This document shows positions 2,678-19,985 of a stretch of DNA of 25,703 nt, one piece after another; the stretch's first letter is position 1; each line of letters opens with the position of its first letter. The notes beneath the pieces were generated by a model, which was given only the letters and a program-made list of their open reading frames with translations, was not told the DNA's origin and searched no databases. Both the position numbers and the translations under genes were made by a program. The DNA is from a virus, in IMG/VR virus record IMGVR_UViG_3300027857_000468, positions 1-25,703 of that record. One strand, 5' to 3'.

Positions 2678-3098
2678 AAAGGCGCTCCTCGTCGCCGCGG
2701 CGTTTCAATTATCAAAGGCTGATGATTTGCGCGAGTTATGCGCTATCGTCTGTGTTATTCGCAATTGGGTCGTTCCTCGGCTTGGAGAGGCTGCGTCGTA
2801 TCGGAGTTACACCGAGGCGATCGCAAACTTCCTCGACGCCTACCCAAAGCGGCAGCTTCCTAGCATCAACACGCCGTCGCTCATCGATCCACGTGAAGGA
2901 CTCCTCGCTCAGGTCGATGGATTTTATAACAACTCTGCCGCGGACGTCACGAGCTCACACCTATTCCCTCGCGGCGCGCGGTACTTCGCTCGGCCACAGG
3001 ACGTAAAGAACGGAGATTGGATTAAGGCTCAGGTGCTAGATCGCCAAGATGAGCACCCGTTAATCGGAGTTTTTGGAAGTCAGTCCTTTTTCGCATGA
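2658..3098 (+). CDS. Divergent SleB-like cell-wall hydrolase (putative)
   Basis: This 146-aa protein may be a second peptidoglycan-active enzyme. The N-terminal helix LCAIVCVIRNWVV resembles the AxVVxNR block of SleB/CwlJ hydrolases. The C-terminal half has AADVTSSHLFPRGARYF and then PLIGVFGSQSFF, resembling the family's DPTGGAxxF and IGxHxFY blocks. The usual catalytic Glu near the N-terminus cannot be assigned with certainty (E45 is one candidate). The match is by eye only. Its place close to the GH24 endolysin supports a lysis or wall-degrading role. It ends in an ATGA overlap. Confidence 0.55.
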   Translation: MQHREYEKALLVAAAFQLSKADDLRELCAIVCVIRNWVVPRLGEAASYRSYTEAIANFLDAYPKRQLPSINTPSLIDPREGLLAQVDGFYNNSAADVTSSHLFPRGARYFARPQDVKNGDWIKAQVLDRQDEHPLIGVFGSQSFFA

Positions 3099-5246: not shown

Positions 5247-5305
5247 ATGCACGATGAGTTTAGCTGTTCCATCGCAAGGAGGCCAACATGACTAGGACAG
5301 TTTGA
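5247..5305 (+). other. Two mini-frames with ribosome sites (possible leader peptides)
   Basis: A 14-codon frame starts at ATG 5247 (MHDEFSCSIARRPT). Its TGA overlaps the ATG at 5288 of a 5-codon frame (MTRTV), which has AAGGAGG in front. That frame stops at 5305, 13 nt before the next gene. The strong ribosome site and ATGA overlap are suggestive, but the frames are so short that chance cannot be excluded. Confidence 0.25.
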
Positions 5306-5318
5306 GGAGGTCTTAATC

Positions 5319-5492
5319 ATGGCTGGAAACGCGCATCGCGCGCGTCATGGGAATCGGCCTGACTGCATTTTTTGTCAGTATCGACCCAAGGTCGCGCGCA
5401 AGCTCCACGCTTTTCGCAATTCCCGCGGGCATCGTCGCAATCGACACGCGAAACGCCGCGGACGCCGTAATAAACCGCACGTCGTTCGTTGA
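5319..5492 (+). CDS. Small, very basic CxxC protein, 57 aa
   Basis: The ATG at 5319 follows GAGGAGG (5304-5310) at good spacing. The product begins MAGNAHRARHGNRPDCIFCQ and carries a single CxxC at residues 16-19. The rest is extremely rich in Arg, His and Lys, so a nucleic-acid-binding role, perhaps with metal bound by Cys/His, is possible. No family is recognised. It is missing from a simple long-frame view because a different frame is open across it. It ends 10 nt before the collagen-like gene, whose GAGGAG site overlaps its stop. Confidence 0.5.
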   Translation: MAGNAHRARHGNRPDCIFCQYRPKVARKLHAFRNSRGHRRNRHAKRRGRRNKPHVVR

Positions 5493-5502
5493 GGAGAATT
5501 TA

Positions 5503-5871
5503 ATGATTGTCGATCCAATCGCAGTGGGGGCTCTCGTTTTGGGAGGAGCTTCACTCGCAGTTCACTTCCTTCATAAATCTACTCCGGGCCCCCAGGGTCC
5601 AGTCGGTTTGCAGGGGCACCCCGGGGTCGCAGGCCCGGCCGGGGCCACCGGGAGTCCGGGTAAGGATGGCGCGCCTGGAAAAGACGCCGCTCCGGCCAAG
5701 GACGGTAAGGATGGCGCCCCAGGTCGTGATGGGAAAGACGGTGTTGGTTTGAAGGGCGACAAAGGGGACAAAGGAGATCCTGGTGTCGGGATGAAGGGCG
5801 ACAAAGGGGACAAAGGGGACAAAGGGGACAAAGGGGACAAAGGGGACAAAGGGGATCCGGCTGGAAAATGA
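5503..5871 (+). CDS. Membrane-anchored collagen-like protein, 122 aa
   Basis: Start is the ATG at 5503 with GAGGAG 6 nt upstream; an in-frame upstream start at 5347 would overlap the preceding gene. Residues 5-23 are hydrophobic (IAVGALVLGGASLAVHFLH), a likely membrane anchor. From residue 29 the protein is almost all Gly-X-Y triplets, with brief breaks at AAPAKD (61-66) and after VG. It ends in a block of six GDK triplets. Gly-Asp-Lys and Gly-Pro-x triplets favour a trimeric collagen helix. Collagen-like segments are known in phage tail fibres and structural proteins; here the short length and membrane anchor are unusual. It overlaps the next gene (ATGA). Confidence 0.85.
   Translation: MIVDPIAVGALVLGGASLAVHFLHKSTPGPQGPVGLQGHPGVAGPAGATGSPGKDGAPGKDAAPAKDGKDGAPGRDGKDGVGLKGDKGDKGDPGVGMKGDKGDKGDKGDKGDKGDKGDPAGK
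5797..5850 (+). repeat. Six 9-bp tandem repeats coding Gly-Asp-Lys
   Basis: Six tandem 9-bp units, one GGCGACAAA followed by five identical GGGGACAAA, encode (Gly-Asp-Lys)6 in the collagen-like protein. A shorter copy of the same pattern lies at about 5752-5775. Identity at synonymous positions indicates recent slippage expansion, so copy number is likely to vary between isolates. Confidence 0.85.
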
Positions 5872-6191
5872 GTGAAGATTTTATTTCAGTTCGCGCAGCC
5901 GCGCTAGAGTTTGGCTTGCCAGAGAAATCCGCTGGAAAAGCCTTCTTTAAAATTCGCAAAAAGTTTCCTGAACTTTTAAAGAGAACTCGTCGTGGAAACT
6001 CGGGGCATTTATCGTGGTCTATTCCGGTCTCGGAAAATAAAACGATTTTTGAAAAACTTGGGTATGTTGCATTTGGCGGCTCAGTAGTTTCAGTTGAAAA
6101 ACCTCAGACGGAATCACATCGTTGGGAAAATGAATGCGCTTCCGAACTCAAGGCCCAAGGCTTTGAAACTCTAGTCGTTGCCGAAAAATGA
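5868..6191 (+). CDS. N-terminal part of a PD-(D/E)XK nuclease, ended by in-frame UGA
   Basis: This 107-aa product starts in an ATGA overlap with the collagen-like gene. Residues 1-55 (ISVRAAALEFGLPEKSAGKA, then FPELLKRTRRGNSGHLSW) look like a small DNA-binding domain. From about residue 87, WENECASELKAQGFETLVVAEK matches the first helix and strand of a PD-(D/E)XK nuclease fold. Translation then meets TGA at 6189-6191. The same frame stays open for 54 more codons and encodes the PD and E-x-K motifs. So this gene is either a broken nuclease or one completed by UGA readthrough. Its base composition is more AT-rich than the neighbours, suggesting separate acquisition. Confidence 0.7.
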   Translation: MSEDFISVRAAALEFGLPEKSAGKAFFKIRKKFPELLKRTRRGNSGHLSWSIPVSENKTIFEKLGYVAFGGSVVSVEKPQTESHRWENECASELKAQGFETLVVAEK

Positions 6192-6356
6192 ACTCCTGAC
6201 GTCATCGCTTTTCGCCAACGCCCGACCGGCGGTTTTGATTTGATTTTTGTAGAAGCAAAAGGCCCAGGTGATAGCTTGAGTAAGGAGCAATACGAGAAAA
6301 TTGAAAAACTCAAGGCTCTGGGCGTGGATGCTAAGATTCGTTGGTTCGAGGTCTAG
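6192..6356 (+). pseudogene. Downstream in-frame half of the nuclease (catalytic motifs)
   Basis: Directly after the TGA, in the same frame, the sequence encodes TPDVIAFRQRPTGGFDLIFV, then EAKGPGDSLSKEQYEKIEKL and ...VDAKIRWFEV before TAG. PD (residues 2-3 after the stop), FDLIFVEAK and the following Gln-Tyr helix are the catalytic signature of PD-(D/E)XK nucleases. There is no start codon or ribosome site of its own here. The segment is still free of other stops and well conserved in pattern, so the stop is recent, a sequence error, or translated through. Confidence 0.7.
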
Positions 6357-6357
6357 C

Positions 6358-6654
6358 GTGCCCGACCGCATCATAATTCGCGTCGAGCCTAGCTGCGGCG
6401 ACTTCTACGTTCGCGTCGCGGATCGCCGGTTAATCGGCTTTCCGCGCGCGGCCGACGCCGCGTTACTCGCCGAAAATTTGGCTGACGTTTTAAAGCGCCA
6501 CGGCGTCGACTTGACGTTTATTCCCGTGCCTTCGGCGATGCAGGAGCCGGCGATGACGGGCGGGCGCCTTGCGCCTCAAGCCCCAAAGCCTTTGAAGAAT
6601 CCCGGTGGTGGAATCTCGTCGAACTCTCAAGAAGCGGTAAAACACGCCCGATGA
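6358..6654 (+). CDS. Hypothetical protein, 98 aa
   Basis: I chose the GTG at 6358, one base after the TAG ending the nuclease frame; an upstream in-frame ATG at 6301 lies inside the nuclease frame. The first 60 residues form a compact domain with beta strands (DRIIIRVEPSCGDFYVRVAD), then AADAALLAENLADVLKRHGV. The tail is Pro/Gly/Ser-rich. No family is recognised. Its G+C-rich composition contrasts with the nuclease before it. It ends in an ATGA overlap. Confidence 0.6.
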   Translation: MPDRIIIRVEPSCGDFYVRVADRRLIGFPRAADAALLAENLADVLKRHGVDLTFIPVPSAMQEPAMTGGRLAPQAPKPLKNPGGGISSNSQEAVKHAR

Positions 6655-6989
6655 GTCGCCTTACGATAGCCGAGGCAATTGAGTCGCTGAAGAAGCCTGG
6701 CACAACGTACTCCGGGGCCGATTGGAAATTTTCTTGGCCGCACAAGTTTTACATCGGGAACGATCGGATATATAATGAACAGGTACTGAAGGAGTCGCAG
6801 CTCTTGCCTGCCTGGAATGAAGTCAGCCTAAAATTTTTTGGAATTACGTTTGAAATTCGCGAGGAAAAAATTTACTTCCGCTGTCCGTTTCGCGCAGGAC
6901 CCCTCGGGTATCAGCGCGCGGGAGTCGTTGGTGAGGACGGCCGGCCACGGCGGTGCGACACGTGGAGCGTAGACTATGGGGCGAATTAA
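6651..6989 (+). CDS. Hypothetical protein, 112 aa (possible Thoeris/MuF-like fold not assigned)
   Basis: The ATG overlaps the previous stop (ATGA). The N-terminus, MSRLTIAEAIESLKKPGTTY, is a likely helix. Aromatic-rich strands follow (DWKFSWPHKFYIGNDRIY, then SLKFFGITFEIREEKIYF). Two Cys (CPF and CDTW) lie near the end. I can name no family, and no particular fold is supported by sequence alone. The next small gene starts inside its last codons (14-nt overlap). Confidence 0.6.
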   Translation: MSRLTIAEAIESLKKPGTTYSGADWKFSWPHKFYIGNDRIYNEQVLKESQLLPAWNEVSLKFFGITFEIREEKIYFRCPFRAGPLGYQRAGVVGEDGRPRRCDTWSVDYGAN

Positions 6990-7089
6990 AGAGGCGCTTC
7001 GACTCTTGGGCCTGGGGCCTTTGACCCTTTTAGTATCGACTTTATTTTGGATCTTCTTTGCTGCGGCGATTATTTTTTATTCTAAGTAA
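6976..7089 (+). CDS. Single-span membrane mini-protein, 37 aa
   Basis: The ATG at 6976 opens a 37-codon frame: a short basic N-terminus (MGRIKEALRLLG) and then one hydrophobic helix (LTLLVSTLFWIFFAAAIIFY), ending SK. This is a good inner-membrane peptide. Its TAA overlaps the next ATG (TAATG). The tight fit between neighbours supports it as a real gene. Function unknown; a small membrane-active or regulatory peptide is possible. Confidence 0.55.
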   Translation: MGRIKEALRLLGLGPLTLLVSTLFWIFFAAAIIFYSK

Positions 7090-7607
7090 TGAGTGAATTG
7101 GTTAAACTCGAGCGGTGGGCGATAATGTTCGTAGGCGGTAAGGATACGAACGGACAGCCGAAGTCCTGTTTAAATTGCCCCCACCTTTATCAGAAACAAG
7201 AGACGTGTGCGTACATGAACCCGAACGTCATCCTGCGGCAGATCATAGTCGACGAGTCGGAATCGGGCGGCTCAGCTGAGCAGCTTTACACGCCGGTGTG
7301 TGGGTATCAAATTGGCGGGCTCCCGACGTTGACTGATAAGCCGACGTACATGGGCAAGGACCCGGACGAGCTGGGTTTGGAGTGGGCTAAAGGCACAGGC
7401 ACGAATTGCGATGGCTTTGCGGGCGGCGCGCCCTGCGAGCGCTTCACCTCCACCGAAGGGCACGACGGAACGTGCGAGGCGATGGAGGAGGACGATAATA
7501 AGGTCGATTGGGACGATTGTTGCGCGGCGCACAAAGGTGAGTTTATGGAGTGGCCCGAGGCGCAGTTGATGATTGCCGGACGAGAAATTGAAGATGAGCG
7601 AACGTAA
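7089..7607 (+). CDS. Cys-rich acidic protein, 172 aa, probable metal binder
   Basis: The ATG is the last base of TAA plus TG (TAATG). Cysteines are grouped: CLNCPHLYQKQETC (28-41 region), PVCGY, CDGFAGGAPCERF, GTCEAM and DDCCAAH. This looks like one or two zinc- or iron-binding modules. The protein is acidic (EEDDNKVDWDD) with no signal peptide or membrane segment. I know no matching family. The next gene starts within its 3' end (14-nt overlap). Confidence 0.65.
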   Translation: MSELVKLERWAIMFVGGKDTNGQPKSCLNCPHLYQKQETCAYMNPNVILRQIIVDESESGGSAEQLYTPVCGYQIGGLPTLTDKPTYMGKDPDELGLEWAKGTGTNCDGFAGGAPCERFTSTEGHDGTCEAMEEDDNKVDWDDCCAAHKGEFMEWPEAQLMIAGREIEDERT

Positions 7608-8226
7608 AATCTACATTATCGTACCTCATAACTTGAACGTCACTCGTGGCGGAAAGCCCATCAAGCTCAGCGTCACGAGTGGACGTGCGATGAGCTACGT
7701 GGCTCATGCGATGGCGTTGCTAACTGAAAGTTATAAAGTGCCGGGGCTAGTTGATTTAGACATCGTAGTATTAGCGATCGAAAATAACACCGACGTAGCC
7801 ACGGTTAATAATCCGGCGGGAATTTTAATTTTCCCTCGTGATCAATTTTTCTTTACCTACTACGATACGGATAGACTTTTTGACGGAGTGACTCTAGGCG
7901 CGGTTATCGCGGTCGTGCCTAAGGATCTTCGAATTGATTTGCCCGTTTGGAAGTGCGCTTGCAACGACAAGAAGAACTGGGCCGGTACGTCGGTGCTTAT
8001 CTCGCAGTATAATGACTTCGCCGGTACGTCGGCGTTGCGTCCGATTGAGTCGCCCAAAATCAGCGACGTCCCCATCGAGGGCCAACCCAAAATTTTATGC
8101 TCCCGTAGCTCAGCGTCAGAGCGCCTGGTATCTAACCAGGAGGCCGAGGCCGCAAGGCATGAGTCGCCAGACTCTGGTTCAAGTCCCTCCGGGAGCGCCA
8201 GTTTAGGACCGAGGTGCGTGGCGTGA
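7594..8226 (+). CDS. Hypothetical protein whose 3' end runs through a tRNA-like gene
   Basis: The start chosen is ATG 7594, after GAAATTGAAG; an in-frame TTG at 7573 also exists. Residues 1-125 look like a folded alpha/beta domain (KIYIIVPHNLNVTRGGKPI, GRAMSYVAHAMALLTESY, VDLDIVVLAIENNTDVATV, PAGILIFPRDQFFF). An AGTSV/AGTSA repeat follows (13-nt identical repeat at 7980 and 8021). The last 42 codons (from 8099) are simply the translation of a tRNA-like sequence. The frame stops at TGA 8224-8226, overlapping the GTG of the next gene, so the extension may really be translated. No family is recognised. Confidence 0.6.
   Translation: MSERKIYIIVPHNLNVTRGGKPIKLSVTSGRAMSYVAHAMALLTESYKVPGLVDLDIVVLAIENNTDVATVNNPAGILIFPRDQFFFTYYDTDRLFDGVTLGAVIAVVPKDLRIDLPVWKCACNDKKNWAGTSVLISQYNDFAGTSALRPIESPKISDVPIEGQPKILCSRSSASERLVSNQEAEAARHESPDSGSSPSGSASLGPRCVA
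8099..8200 (+). tRNA. Unusual tRNA-like gene, 102 nt, formally tRNA-Arg(TCT)
   Basis: Acceptor stem GCTCCCG (8099-8105) pairs perfectly with CGGGAGC (8190-8196), followed by G and an encoded CCA (8198-8200). D stem is GCTC/GAGC (8108-8111, 8119-8122). Anticodon stem is CCTGG/CCAGG (8124-8128, 8136-8140) with loop TATCTAA, so positions 34-36 read TCT. The T loop TTCAAGT (8178-8184) is followed by CCCTC. The matching 5' T strand, GAG or GAGG, lies at 8146-8149, with an extra 27 nt before the GG or G that completes it. Without those 27 nt the gene is a canonical 75-mer. Oddities are A at position 33 instead of U, and a D loop (AGCGTCA) without the usual GG. It may be degenerate, or require removal of the insert. 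Confidence 0.65.
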
Positions 8227-17711: not shown

Positions 17712-18620
17712 ATGCCTAGCAATTCTGCGGCATCCTTTGTCATCGGCTCTTCTCTTCCCTCGACTCAGGCGGTCTATTACGATCGCCTGGCGGTTCGGTC
17801 CTTGTTCGCCCATTTGGGCTTTCAAGGCCTGACGGCGGAACGGCAGATTCCGAAGAACGCTGGTCGTACGACTCAGATTTACACGTACAACCTCGCGCCG
17901 TTTACGGCGAGCGTCTCGGCTGCAGGTTCGGCTGCGGGCGGTAACGTCGTTGATGTTCCGCCTCCGACCGCGACGGAAGGAACCGTGGGCACGCCGATCG
18001 TGCCGACAGAAGCTTCGATTCAAGCGACGCTCGGACAGTACGTCGATTACGTCAATGTTTCGGACTTCGCGTTGGCAGTTGATATCGGTAAGCCTCTCGA
18101 ACAACTCTCAGAAATGTTGGGGTATCGAGGTGCTCTCGTTGTCGACACGTTGATTCAGCAAGGTTATGATGCGGCTGTTTCAACCGACTCGACGGCAAGC
18201 GTTCAGGTTCCCGATGGATCGTTCGTTACCCGTGCCGTTCTTCAGACCGCGGTAGCGACGATTCGGGGCAAGAATGGTCGTCCTTTCCCAGGCGGCCGCC
18301 ATCGTGGTATAATGCATCCGTATATCCTTTCGGATATTGCGAATGATTTGACCGCGAATGGAGTTCTTGACACAGAGAAGTATACGCGTGAAGGACAGAA
18401 GTGGATCGAGGCTGGACTGGCGGAAGATAATGAGATCATTCCAATTGCTGGAATCGATTTTGTGATGTCGACCAACGTCCCCCTCGTAGCGAACTTGCCC
18501 GCTTCCGGTAAGTCGTCTTACGCGACGTATGTATCAGCCGATGAAATGATGTTCTCGATTGCGTTAGGTGGTTTTGAAGATGTTCCTGATGAAAGTAACT
18601 TTATTAATTTGAAGCCTCAT
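17712..18620 (+). CDS. Major capsid protein, exon 1 (N4-gp56-like)
   Basis: This encodes the first 303 residues of the major capsid protein. The opening (AVYYDRLAVRSLFAHLGFQG, then ERQIPKNAGRTTQIYTYN) matches the N-arm of N4-gp56-type HK97-fold capsids, and EASIQATLGQYVDYVNVSD and HPYILSDIANDL follow as expected. The unspliced frame runs on to TGA 18651-18653, adding an unlikely tail (GVEAVMENFL). A group I intron 5' splice site is predicted after the His codon CAT (18618-18620), so exon 1 ends ...NLKPH in phase 0. No strong ribosome site precedes ATG 17712; GGTGA at 17700 may serve. The remaining C-terminus lies in two further exons downstream. Confidence 0.85.
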
Positions 18621-19509
18621 GGTGTTGAAGCCGTGATGGAAAATTTTCTCTGATTGACTCGGACCCTGAGATGGGAACGAGGCGCAAGGAGCGGTTTTTA
18701 AATGACGCACATTAGCATTGGCCAACAGTTTGGAAAATTAACGGCGGTCGAAGAAGCCTCTGGAAATTCTTCTAAGTGTTGTTGCCAATGTGAATGCGGC
18801 GCTATTAAAAAATACAATGTTAAAAATCTATTAAGAGGAAACACAAAAAGTTGTGGATGTTCTCGAAAAACTCCATGGAACTCTCGTGATTTGAGAGGAA
18901 AAAGGTTTGGTCGTCTTACGGTTATTGGAAATTCTTTCCGCGAGGGTGATCATCGCCGTTGGCCTTGTTTATGCGACTGTGGAAATGAGTTGAGTGTTAA
19001 AACCGCTAAACTCATCAACGGGCATACTCAAAGCTGTGGATGCAAACAACGAGATTCGGTAGTAAAGAAAAACCACGAATCTACAAAAAGATCCGATGCG
19101 TACTGGTTTCTTTACGCCGCAAAAAGAAGGGCGATACAAAAAGGGTTAGAGTTTACGTTGTCCGAAAACGATCTCGGAATCGTAATACCTAGCCGTTGTC
19201 CCCTTCTCGACATTCCAATTTTTCGCAGTAAAGGCGGGTTTTCACCTAATAGTCCGTCTCTTGATCGAATAGACTCGGCTAAGGGCTATATTCCCGGTAA
19301 CGTTTGGGTTATAAGCAATCGAGCTAATCTTATCAAGAGGGACGCTACGGCAGAAGAACTTAATCTGCTCGTTACGAATTTTAACCGGCTTCAGCGTGAG
19401 AGACTGAGCGAGAAAACGCCCAGGGTGGGCGATGCAACAGTCCGTTCTTGCGGAAATACAACTGCAAGGGCCAGTAATGGCTTGTCGGAAACGACATCTA
19501 ACAATCAAG
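18621..19509 (+). ncRNA. Group I intron 1 (contains HNH homing endonuclease)
   Basis: P1 can be drawn as exon UCAU|GGU against GCCGUGA, 7 pairs with the expected U.G at the splice point (18620/18621). P3 pairs TTCTC (18646-18650) with GAGAA (19410-19414). P7 pairs GACTG (19402-19406) with CAGTC (19438-19442). P8 is CGCCC-AGGGT-GGGCG (19417-19431). P9 is CTTGC/GCAAG, and a GTCG-GAAA-CGAC hairpin follows. The 3' end is placed after AATCAAG (G19509) by alignment with intron 2; G19479 and G19515 also keep the reading frame. The endonuclease gene sits in the loop before P3'/P7. Confidence 0.8.
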
Positions 19510-19751
19510 AAAGCGAACATCTATCAATTTGCCCCGAACGCGTTCGACCCTTTTCCTCACCGCTAGGGGCCGTAAAACCTTCTCTGATTGACTCGAACGC
19601 TGAGATGCCAACGAGGCGGAAAGCTGAAAGTAGCTGCCGTGAGAGACTGAGCGAGAAGGCGCCTGAAAAGGTGATGCAACAGTCCGATCCCATAGAAAAT
19701 AAACTGTGGGAGCTAGACAGAAATGATCTGGCCTGCTATTTATGGCAGTAA
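18702..19751 (+). CDS. HNH homing endonuclease in group I intron
   Basis: The start is ATG 18702 with AAGGAG upstream, inside intron 1. Two repeats of a short Cys-rich module lie at about residues 6-53 and 68-114 (VIG-x-GR-x-W-x-C-x-CDCG, ending SCGC). They are typical DNA-binding parts of phage HNH enzymes. The HNH nuclease core is at about 165-215 (SRCPLLDIPI, then SLDRIDSAKGYIPGNVWVIS and NRANLIKRDAT). The enzyme would cut intron-less alleles to spread the intron. The recognisable protein ends near residue 230, just where the ribozyme core begins. The frame nevertheless stays open through the core, the micro-exon and most of intron 2 to TAA 19749-19751, so the last 120 residues may be a chance extension. 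Confidence 0.88.
   Translation: MTHISIGQQFGKLTAVEEASGNSSKCCCQCECGAIKKYNVKNLLRGNTKSCGCSRKTPWNSRDLRGKRFGRLTVIGNSFREGDHRRWPCLCDCGNELSVKTAKLINGHTQSCGCKQRDSVVKKNHESTKRSDAYWFLYAAKRRAIQKGLEFTLSENDLGIVIPSRCPLLDIPIFRSKGGFSPNSPSLDRIDSAKGYIPGNVWVISNRANLIKRDATAEELNLLVTNFNRLQRERLSEKTPRVGDATVRSCGNTTARASNGLSETTSNNQESEHLSICPERVRPFSSPLGAVKPSLIDSNAEMPTRRKAESSCRERLSEKAPEKVMQQSDPIENKLWELDRNDLACYLWQ
19510..19551 (+). CDS. Major capsid protein, micro-exon 2
   Basis: These 14 codons (KANIYQFAPNAFDP) continue the capsid frame in phase 0 from exon 1. They are bounded upstream by the intron 1 end (AATCAAG) and downstream by the intron 2 P1, in which exon CCCU can pair with GGGG (the next bases, U and A, pair too). 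A 5' splice site three bases later (after TTT, adding Phe) is possible. The sequence NAFDP suits the segment before the conserved C-terminal block of this capsid family. The exact borders are uncertain by several codons. Confidence 0.6.
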
Positions 19752-19756
19752 CAAAG
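19552..19756 (+). ncRNA. Group I intron 2 (minimal, no endonuclease)
   Basis: About 205 nt. From 19574 to 19620 it matches the 5' part of intron 1 closely (CTCTGATTGACTCG, GCTGAGATG, AACGAGGCGG). P3 pairs TTCTC (19580-19584) with GAGAA (in GCGAGAAGG, 19651-19659). P7 pairs GACTG (19645-19649) with CAGTC (19680-19684). P8 is CGCCT-GAAA-AGGTG. P9 CATAG/CTGTG follows. The last nucleotide is put at G19756 (AACAAAG), matching intron 1; G19759 is possible and would allow exon GGCGG to pair with CCGCT in the guide. It is a small, related ribozyme without a reading frame of its own. Confidence 0.78.
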
Positions 19757-19879
19757 ATGGGCGGAGAAATCGGAGGCGCAGTGTCCTACAACTTTAAGTT
19801 CGTTGTAACTCCTCGCCCCGCTGCCGCTGGTACGTTTTTGCCGTTCCGGCGTATTTTGGCTGAAACTGCGGTTGCATAA
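19757..19879 (+). CDS. Major capsid protein, exon 3 (C-terminus)
   Basis: This 40-codon segment (MGGEIGGAVSYNFKFVVTPR, then PAAAGTFLPFRRILAETAVA and TAA) carries the conserved C-terminal block of N4-gp56-type capsids, where a Gly-rich turn leads into a strand (VSYNFKFVV). It has no ribosome site and follows intron 2, so it is translated only as part of the spliced capsid mRNA. Joined with exons 1 and 2 it gives a protein of about 357 aa, a normal size for the family, whereas exon 1 alone would lack this end. Confidence 0.75.
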   Translation: MGGEIGGAVSYNFKFVVTPRPAAAGTFLPFRRILAETAVA

Positions 19880-19985
19880 CGCAACTCAAGGCTCCAGGCC
19901 CTAATGTCCTGGCAGACTAATCCTCTGTGAGTCGATTAAAAGGCGAAGACGGGAGGTAATCCTCACCTCCCGTCTGAATCCTTCG
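19880..19985 (+). terminator. Two stem-loops after the capsid gene
   Basis: CCAGG/CCTGG (19894-19898 and 19908-19912, 9-nt loop) is followed by AGACGGGAGG-(9 nt)-CCTCCCGTCT at 19947-19975, a perfect 10-bp stem. The second is strong enough for a terminator, but no T-run follows (TGAATCC). It ends 10 nt before the next ATG and contains an SD-like GGGAGG locked in the stem. Partial termination, mRNA processing after the highly expressed capsid gene, or control of the next gene are possible. Confidence 0.5.

Follow-up and report, generated by a model that had tools for sequence, protein, structure and literature searches.

Closest described systems

Tandem group I introns, introns in capsid genes and very short exons are each already known. 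In the Staphylococcus phage Twort, introns 2 and 3 of orf142, a tail gene, flank an exon of only 23 nt (Landthaler & Shub, 1999, as relayed in PMC10136302); that account describes introns of subgroup IA2 and exon skipping. In mycobacteriophage LittleE a single group I-like intron interrupts the HK97-type major capsid gene; its LAGLIDADG ORF is encoded on the opposite strand, and splicing of the intron was demonstrated by RT-PCR and N-terminal sequencing (PMC3706429). The major capsid protein (MCP) genes of uncultured crAss-like Zeta phages lie in five fragments with several group I introns, which were identified by their endonuclease domains; the sections on these genes describe neither an ORF-less subfamily of 200-nt introns nor micro-exons (PMC7886860). 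The many group I introns of Jug phage, averaging about 206 nt, are scattered across numerous genes of these huge gut viruses, and metatranscriptomes support splicing for 37 of the 76 that were checked (PMC12363816). Among the Bastillevirinae there are genes with two or three introns, an unexpected small exon in the phiNIT1 rNDPL gene and exon skipping in SIOphi; most of these introns sit in genes for DNA polymerase, terminase or nucleotide metabolism, and capsids go unmentioned (PMC11878797).

The window analysed here is an IMG/VR virus fragment of 25.7 kb (25,703 nt) with the gene order TerL–portal–capsid. Its major capsid gene very probably comprises three exons and a pair of group I introns, both from a subfamily termed R1, which would be removed by splicing and most likely arrived separately (Table 1). 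As in Twort orf142, two similar group I introns surround a very short exon in a phage virion gene. The window differs in that the gene encodes an N4-type major capsid protein, the exon measures 42 nt, and the cores, as read from the alignment, lack an evident P7.1/P7.2 insertion. The locus shares with LittleE an endonuclease-bearing intron in a major capsid gene, with the Zeta phages several group I introns in MCP genes of uncultured phages, with the Jug phage the abundance and small size of the introns, and with the Bastillevirinae the multiplicity of introns within one gene. In the open-access literature we found no description of a concentration of R1 introns in N4-type capsid genes, or of the micro-exon arrays of this subfamily.

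Table 1. Predicted exons, introns and ribozyme elements of the split capsid gene (window coordinates)
Feature	Position	Strand	Details
Major capsid exon 1	17712–18602	+	297 codons, 891 nt, ends ...DESNF; PHROG 1357, splice-aware model vs L002
Group I intron 1	18603–19509	+	907 nt, after codon 297; AACTTT^ATTAAT...AATCAAG^AAAGCG; site empty in L001–L008
Intron 1 P1	18599–18614	+	CUUU 18599–18602 / IGS GAAG 18611–18614; U18602.G18611 at splice site
Intron 1 P10	UUU 18608–18610 with AAA 19510–19512	+	Adjacent to P1; only 3 A-U pairs
Intron 1 P2 hairpin	18617–18636	+	UCAUGG/CCGUGA; MFE fold
Intron 1 core, 5' part	18646–18685	+	P3 5' strand 18646–18650, P4, P5, P4', P6 5' strand
HNH homing-endonuclease ORF	18702–19751	+	Starts in intron 1 P6 loop; phrog_3322 E 1.8e-34, phrog_374 E 1e-30
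Intron 1 core, 3' part	19395–19445	+	P6 3', P7 5' 19402–19406, P3 3' 19410–19414, P8, P7 3' 19438–19442
Micro-exon	19510–19551	+	42 nt, 14 residues, KANIYQFAPNAFDP; splice-aware model vs L002
Group I intron 2	19552–19759	+	208 nt, no ORF, after codon 311; GACCCT^TTTCCT...AAAGATG^GGCGGA
Intron 2 P1	19548–19569	+	CCCU 19548–19551 / GGGG 19566–19569; U19551.G19566
Intron 2 P10	CCGCU 19560–19564 / GGCGG 19760–19764	+	5 pairs
Intron 2 core	19580–19687	+	P3 19580–19584/19653–19657, P4–P6, P7 19645–19649/19680–19684, P8
Intron 2 3' domain	19688–19759	+	Three hairpins P9, P9.1, P9.2, then GTAACAAAGATG^
Major capsid exon 3	19760–19879	+	39 codons (117 nt) plus stop; splice-aware model vs L002

An interrupted N4-type capsid gene

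The ORF at 17712–18653 matches the major head protein family PHROG 1357 (E 8.5e-13). For L002, an intact homologue, an AF2 model (mean pLDDT 70) has the phage N4 capsid as its top PDB match (E 7.5e-14). Together, the protein family match and the predicted fold point to the N4 gp56-like major capsid family. A search of IMG/VR with exon 1 returned close relatives at 79–93% identity, several of which are intact and read ...DESNF-KANIYQFAPNAFDP-GGEIGGAVSYNF... unbroken; in L001–L008, where the first site is empty, ESNF runs straight into KANI. These uninterrupted relatives fix the junctions at 18602/19510 and 19551/19760, the coordinates coming from a splice model in which U^ and G^ were required; homology offers no better sites. 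In the splice-aware alignment, the joined exons of the window match the intact L002 protein over 350 of 350 residues without a gap, the comparison with an intron-less homologue that the initial annotation had proposed.

That annotation, which proposed two tandem group I introns and a micro-exon, is borne out by this gap-free splice model together with the covariation, the U^/G^ rules and the synonymous-dominated divergence of the small exons set out below. Its early closure of the capsid frame at 18653 and its reading of KANIYQFAPNAFDP in that frame between the introns likewise hold. The C-terminus GGEIGGAVSYNFKFVV does reappear downstream, with exon 3 beginning at 19760 and not at 19757. Exon 1 had been drawn to ...NLKPH, 18 nt too far downstream: homology places its end after TTT at 18602. 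A 5' site after CAT 18620 was rejected, as it would add six residues, INLKPH, that are absent from intact relatives.

Relative to L002, the micro-exon has eight codon differences, eight synonymous and none nonsynonymous, and exon 3 has 29, of which 26 are synonymous and three nonsynonymous. Judged by codon comparison, divergence so dominated by synonymous change is the pattern of translated exons. If the small exons are indeed translated as one protein with exon 1, the inserts must be removed. Across 48 capsid proteins, N296, D310 and P311 are nearly invariant, and the stretch of the micro-exon that holds D310–P311 includes a predicted strand.

Two probable ribozymes of one subfamily

An alignment of 38 cores accommodates the pseudoknotted group I structure, in which P7 crosses P3, with 98.8% of cells paired. 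Double (compensatory) changes occur at 14 of the 26 core pairs, spanning helices P3, P4, P5, P6, P7 and P8, and P7 alternates between G-C and A-U. The covariation score of these cores is 0.372; shuffled alignments give 0.12, and displacing the partners by one to three columns gives no more than 0.079. P4–P8 were recovered independently by RNAalifold. With a covariance model of the R1 subfamily, intron 2 reaches 109.3 bits (E 1e-26), and intron 1, which the HNH ORF divides, reaches 33.7 and 24.4 bits for its two halves. These values are well above chance but are scores of training members, as both window cores are among the 38. The RNA fold of 19541–19775 has a z of -2.95.

Each intron displays a pseudoknotted core, a U.G pair in P1, a terminal G with a P10, and restoration of the frame on excision. 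Both follow the group I splice rules, with U18602 and U19551 ending the 5' exons and G19509 and G19759 ending the introns, and both have a short P1 of about four pairs. The motifs first noticed by eye, TTCTC (18646, 19580), GACTG (19402, 19645) and CAGTC (19438, 19680), are all where they were reported to be. The hairpin at CAT/GG, initially taken for a 7-pair P1, exists with 4+3 pairs and fits P2 better. Splicing of both introns is predicted from their anatomy.

The group I covariance check that the initial annotation proposed has a divided outcome: the R1 model, trained on both introns, matches both, and the Rfam model Intron_gpI (RF00028) finds no match in the window at E up to 5, nor in 18500–19900 at low stringency. 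At its gathering threshold, RF00028 detects the R1 subfamily in none of the R1-bearing loci scanned. Failing this threshold reflects the reach of one model and is not a defining property of group I introns. In a capsid lineage of about 36% identity, RF00028 does reach threshold for an intron at the site homologous to that of intron 1 (L192, 58.4 bits), as it does for one near the C-terminus of another capsid gene at about 36% identity (L182, 61.0 bits); both have a 3' domain like that of the R1 subfamily, CAGAAATG...GTAACA. It also matches a sister intron in a related capsid gene (L012, 7550–7759).

Intron 1 has the makings of a mobile HNH intron, with the ORF of a putative endonuclease inside the intron. 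An AAGGAG at 18686–18691 precedes this ORF, and the HNH similarity stops near residue 233, at about 19400. Searches for relatives of the endonuclease did not reach the same intron elsewhere. Beyond the similarity, about 116 further codons pass through the ribozyme core, the micro-exon and intron 2 before the frame closes. Dinucleotide shuffles, which ignore ribozyme constraint, remain open in 6 of 3000 cases, and the extension may be due to chance.

Considering these features, each ribozyme would fold separately after transcription and dock its own P1 (CUUU/GAAG in intron 1, CCCU/GGGG in intron 2). Guanosine would then attack at the U^ site, the exons would join at the terminal G of the intron, and the intron would be released. 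The resulting mRNA would encode an N4 gp56-like capsid protein of 350 aa, with the 14 residues of the micro-exon included. Intron 1 may be, or may have been, mobile by way of its HNH endonuclease, and the ORF-less intron 2 could be maintained passively or mobilized in trans.

Alternative readings of the locus

One could instead suppose that the capsid gene is truly truncated at ENFL, where the uninterrupted ORF closes at 18653, the downstream pieces being remnants or pseudo-exons. This is extremely improbable: none of the 45 uninterrupted MCP clusters is truncated at that point, several of the best-conserved residues are encoded downstream of it, and the small exons diverge mainly at synonymous positions. 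It is just as hard to credit that the inserts are elements other than ribozymes, namely inteins, free-standing HNH insertions or assembly chimeras, even though Rfam misses both and the exact combination of introns 1 and 2 is seen only in the window, a single metagenomic contig. The covarying core of the 208-nt insert, which has no ORF, is found again in many independent contigs, and the same exon/intron layout occurs in L012–L014, three separately named records; inteins are excluded because the inserts break the reading frame.

Granting two ribozymes, might the 5' site of intron 1 often join the 3' site of intron 2, so that the micro-exon is skipped and a significant 336-aa variant is made? 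The micro-exon is in frame at 42 nt, the strands of P3, P4 and P7 are common to both cores, and paired group I introns do skip exons in Twort orf142 (23 nt), Coxiella 23S rRNA (34 nt) and SIOphi (PMC10136302, PMC11878797). Frequent skipping is unlikely nonetheless, as it would delete D310–P311 and the predicted strand from a protein segment so conserved that it differs from L002 by synonymous change only. Distinct splice-site recognition elements are reported to suppress skipping (PMC10136302). Here each intron has a P1 and P10 of its own, and at one P6 position a C-G pair in one intron faces a G-C pair in the other, differences that should limit skipping of the micro-exon.

Probable separate origins of the two introns

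The initial annotation left the pair between duplication and repeated invasion, and separate acquisition is now favoured. The extended shared sequence that it described is real and consists of two direct repeats, one of 48 nt at 85% identity and one of 26 nt at 92%, as a local duplication within the capsid gene would leave. Yet the blocks shared by introns 1 and 2 are those common to the whole subfamily, and the two cores are only 77.5% identical to each other. The nearest cores to intron 2 are those of L019, L021 and L001 (86–87.5%), and the nearest to intron 1 those of L083 and L078 (84–85%). In a core tree that rests on about 100 nt, with many weakly supported nodes, intron 2 groups with L019 and L001 and intron 1 with L083 and L078. 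Because each core is closer to cores of other phages than to its partner, the introns appear to belong to different subclades; separate acquisitions are the most likely origin, and local duplication is very unlikely.

Recurrent insertion into N4-type capsid genes

Core patterns located about 95 further loci in IMG/VR. When capsid genes were chosen by protein alone, 45 of 60 clusters were uninterrupted and 15 interrupted (including L201, whose gene model is ambiguous), and the insert-free form is therefore the norm. Among close relatives of the window, capsid insertions lie at residues ~12–14, 56–58, ~112, 202, 292, 297, 311 and 321–323. When loci were instead chosen solely by their intron core, dereplication left 72 clusters, of which 42 fell within N4-type capsid genes or at most 1.2 kb away, as did the loci of 15 of the 19 clusters with at least two cores; these counts follow a distance rule, and some of the capsid queries came from the very loci being counted. 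Introns of the R1 subfamily, and group I introns of other kinds, have landed repeatedly in the capsid genes of the window's phage group.

The tandem arrangement, initially called unusual, may be so among annotated phages; within this capsid and intron family it recurs, as arrays of ~200-nt introns parted by micro-exons of 38–78 nt, the splice coordinates outside the window being model predictions. L057 has micro-exons of 42 and 78 nt between introns of 211, 207 and 227 nt, and L062 is a clean array with two micro-exons of 66 nt each. Single micro-exons are found in L030 (38 nt), L061 (54 nt), L190 (67 nt) and L203 (76 nt). The L012 capsid gene holds three inserts at three sites, one an Rfam group I intron and one, at residue 202, with a LAGLIDADG-like frame recognized by eye. 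For L010 and L016, the strict U^/G^ model broke the insertion at residue 56 into two false introns, and these were left out.

LAGLIDADG-like sequences occur in other arrangements as well. In L008, L017 and L018, at ~5280–5995, an R1-subfamily intron near capsid codon 12–14 is followed by a LAGLIDADG-like ORF. The LAGLIDADG-like capsid insertions at L010 3616–4407, L016 5301–6015 and L012 ~6607–7275 have 3' ends without a G if the exon frame is kept.

Portal genes are among the other hosts: in L058 and L040 the core adjoins a frame with a portal protein match (phrog_156). R1-subfamily introns in L066, L070, L071 and L076 likewise stand beside portal-matching or portal-resembling frames. In a blastn search of 50,697 phage records intron 2 found no match; the subfamily consensus had one convincing match among phage records, in Roseobacter phage CRP-118. 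In this cultured phage (L125, OR420741.1), the core lies at 2963–3069 between gp44 and gp45, both annotated as ribonucleotide reductase and probably one split gene. GTDB genomes searched with the core pattern and the capsid protein yielded none.

Several small RNA genes were noted along the way. The minus-strand R1-subfamily intron of L025 (94–283) contains a complete tRNA in its P6 loop (157–227, Rfam 58 bits). A permuted tmRNA match (77 bits) lies at 6253–6496 of L190, on a phage contig with a doubly interrupted capsid gene. The window itself has an odd tRNA-like gene of 99 nt at 8099–8197 (Rfam 39.6 bits), with a long insert near the T arm and the anticodon loop TATCTAA, which ARAGORN does not report.

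Implications

One intron subfamily, missed by Rfam, is concentrated in a single gene family, where it occupies many sites and frequently has two or three copies in a gene; this pattern suggests that split capsids are under-annotated in viral metagenomes. The subfamily offers many natural tandem pairs in which to study what keeps adjacent group I introns from cross-splicing, and its arrays are material for asking how introns reach new sites without an endonuclease. A bolder idea, which we regard as unlikely, is that N4-type capsid genes are a standing habitat of one subfamily of small, mostly ORF-less group I introns that are not neutral parasites, their ordered splicing or skipping acting as late-gene control. 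If that were true, splicing or skipping of the arrayed micro-exons would set the amount or the variant of the capsid protein. Capsid proteins are among the most abundantly made phage proteins, and in the window's phage each copy would depend on two splicings around an exon of 14 codons.
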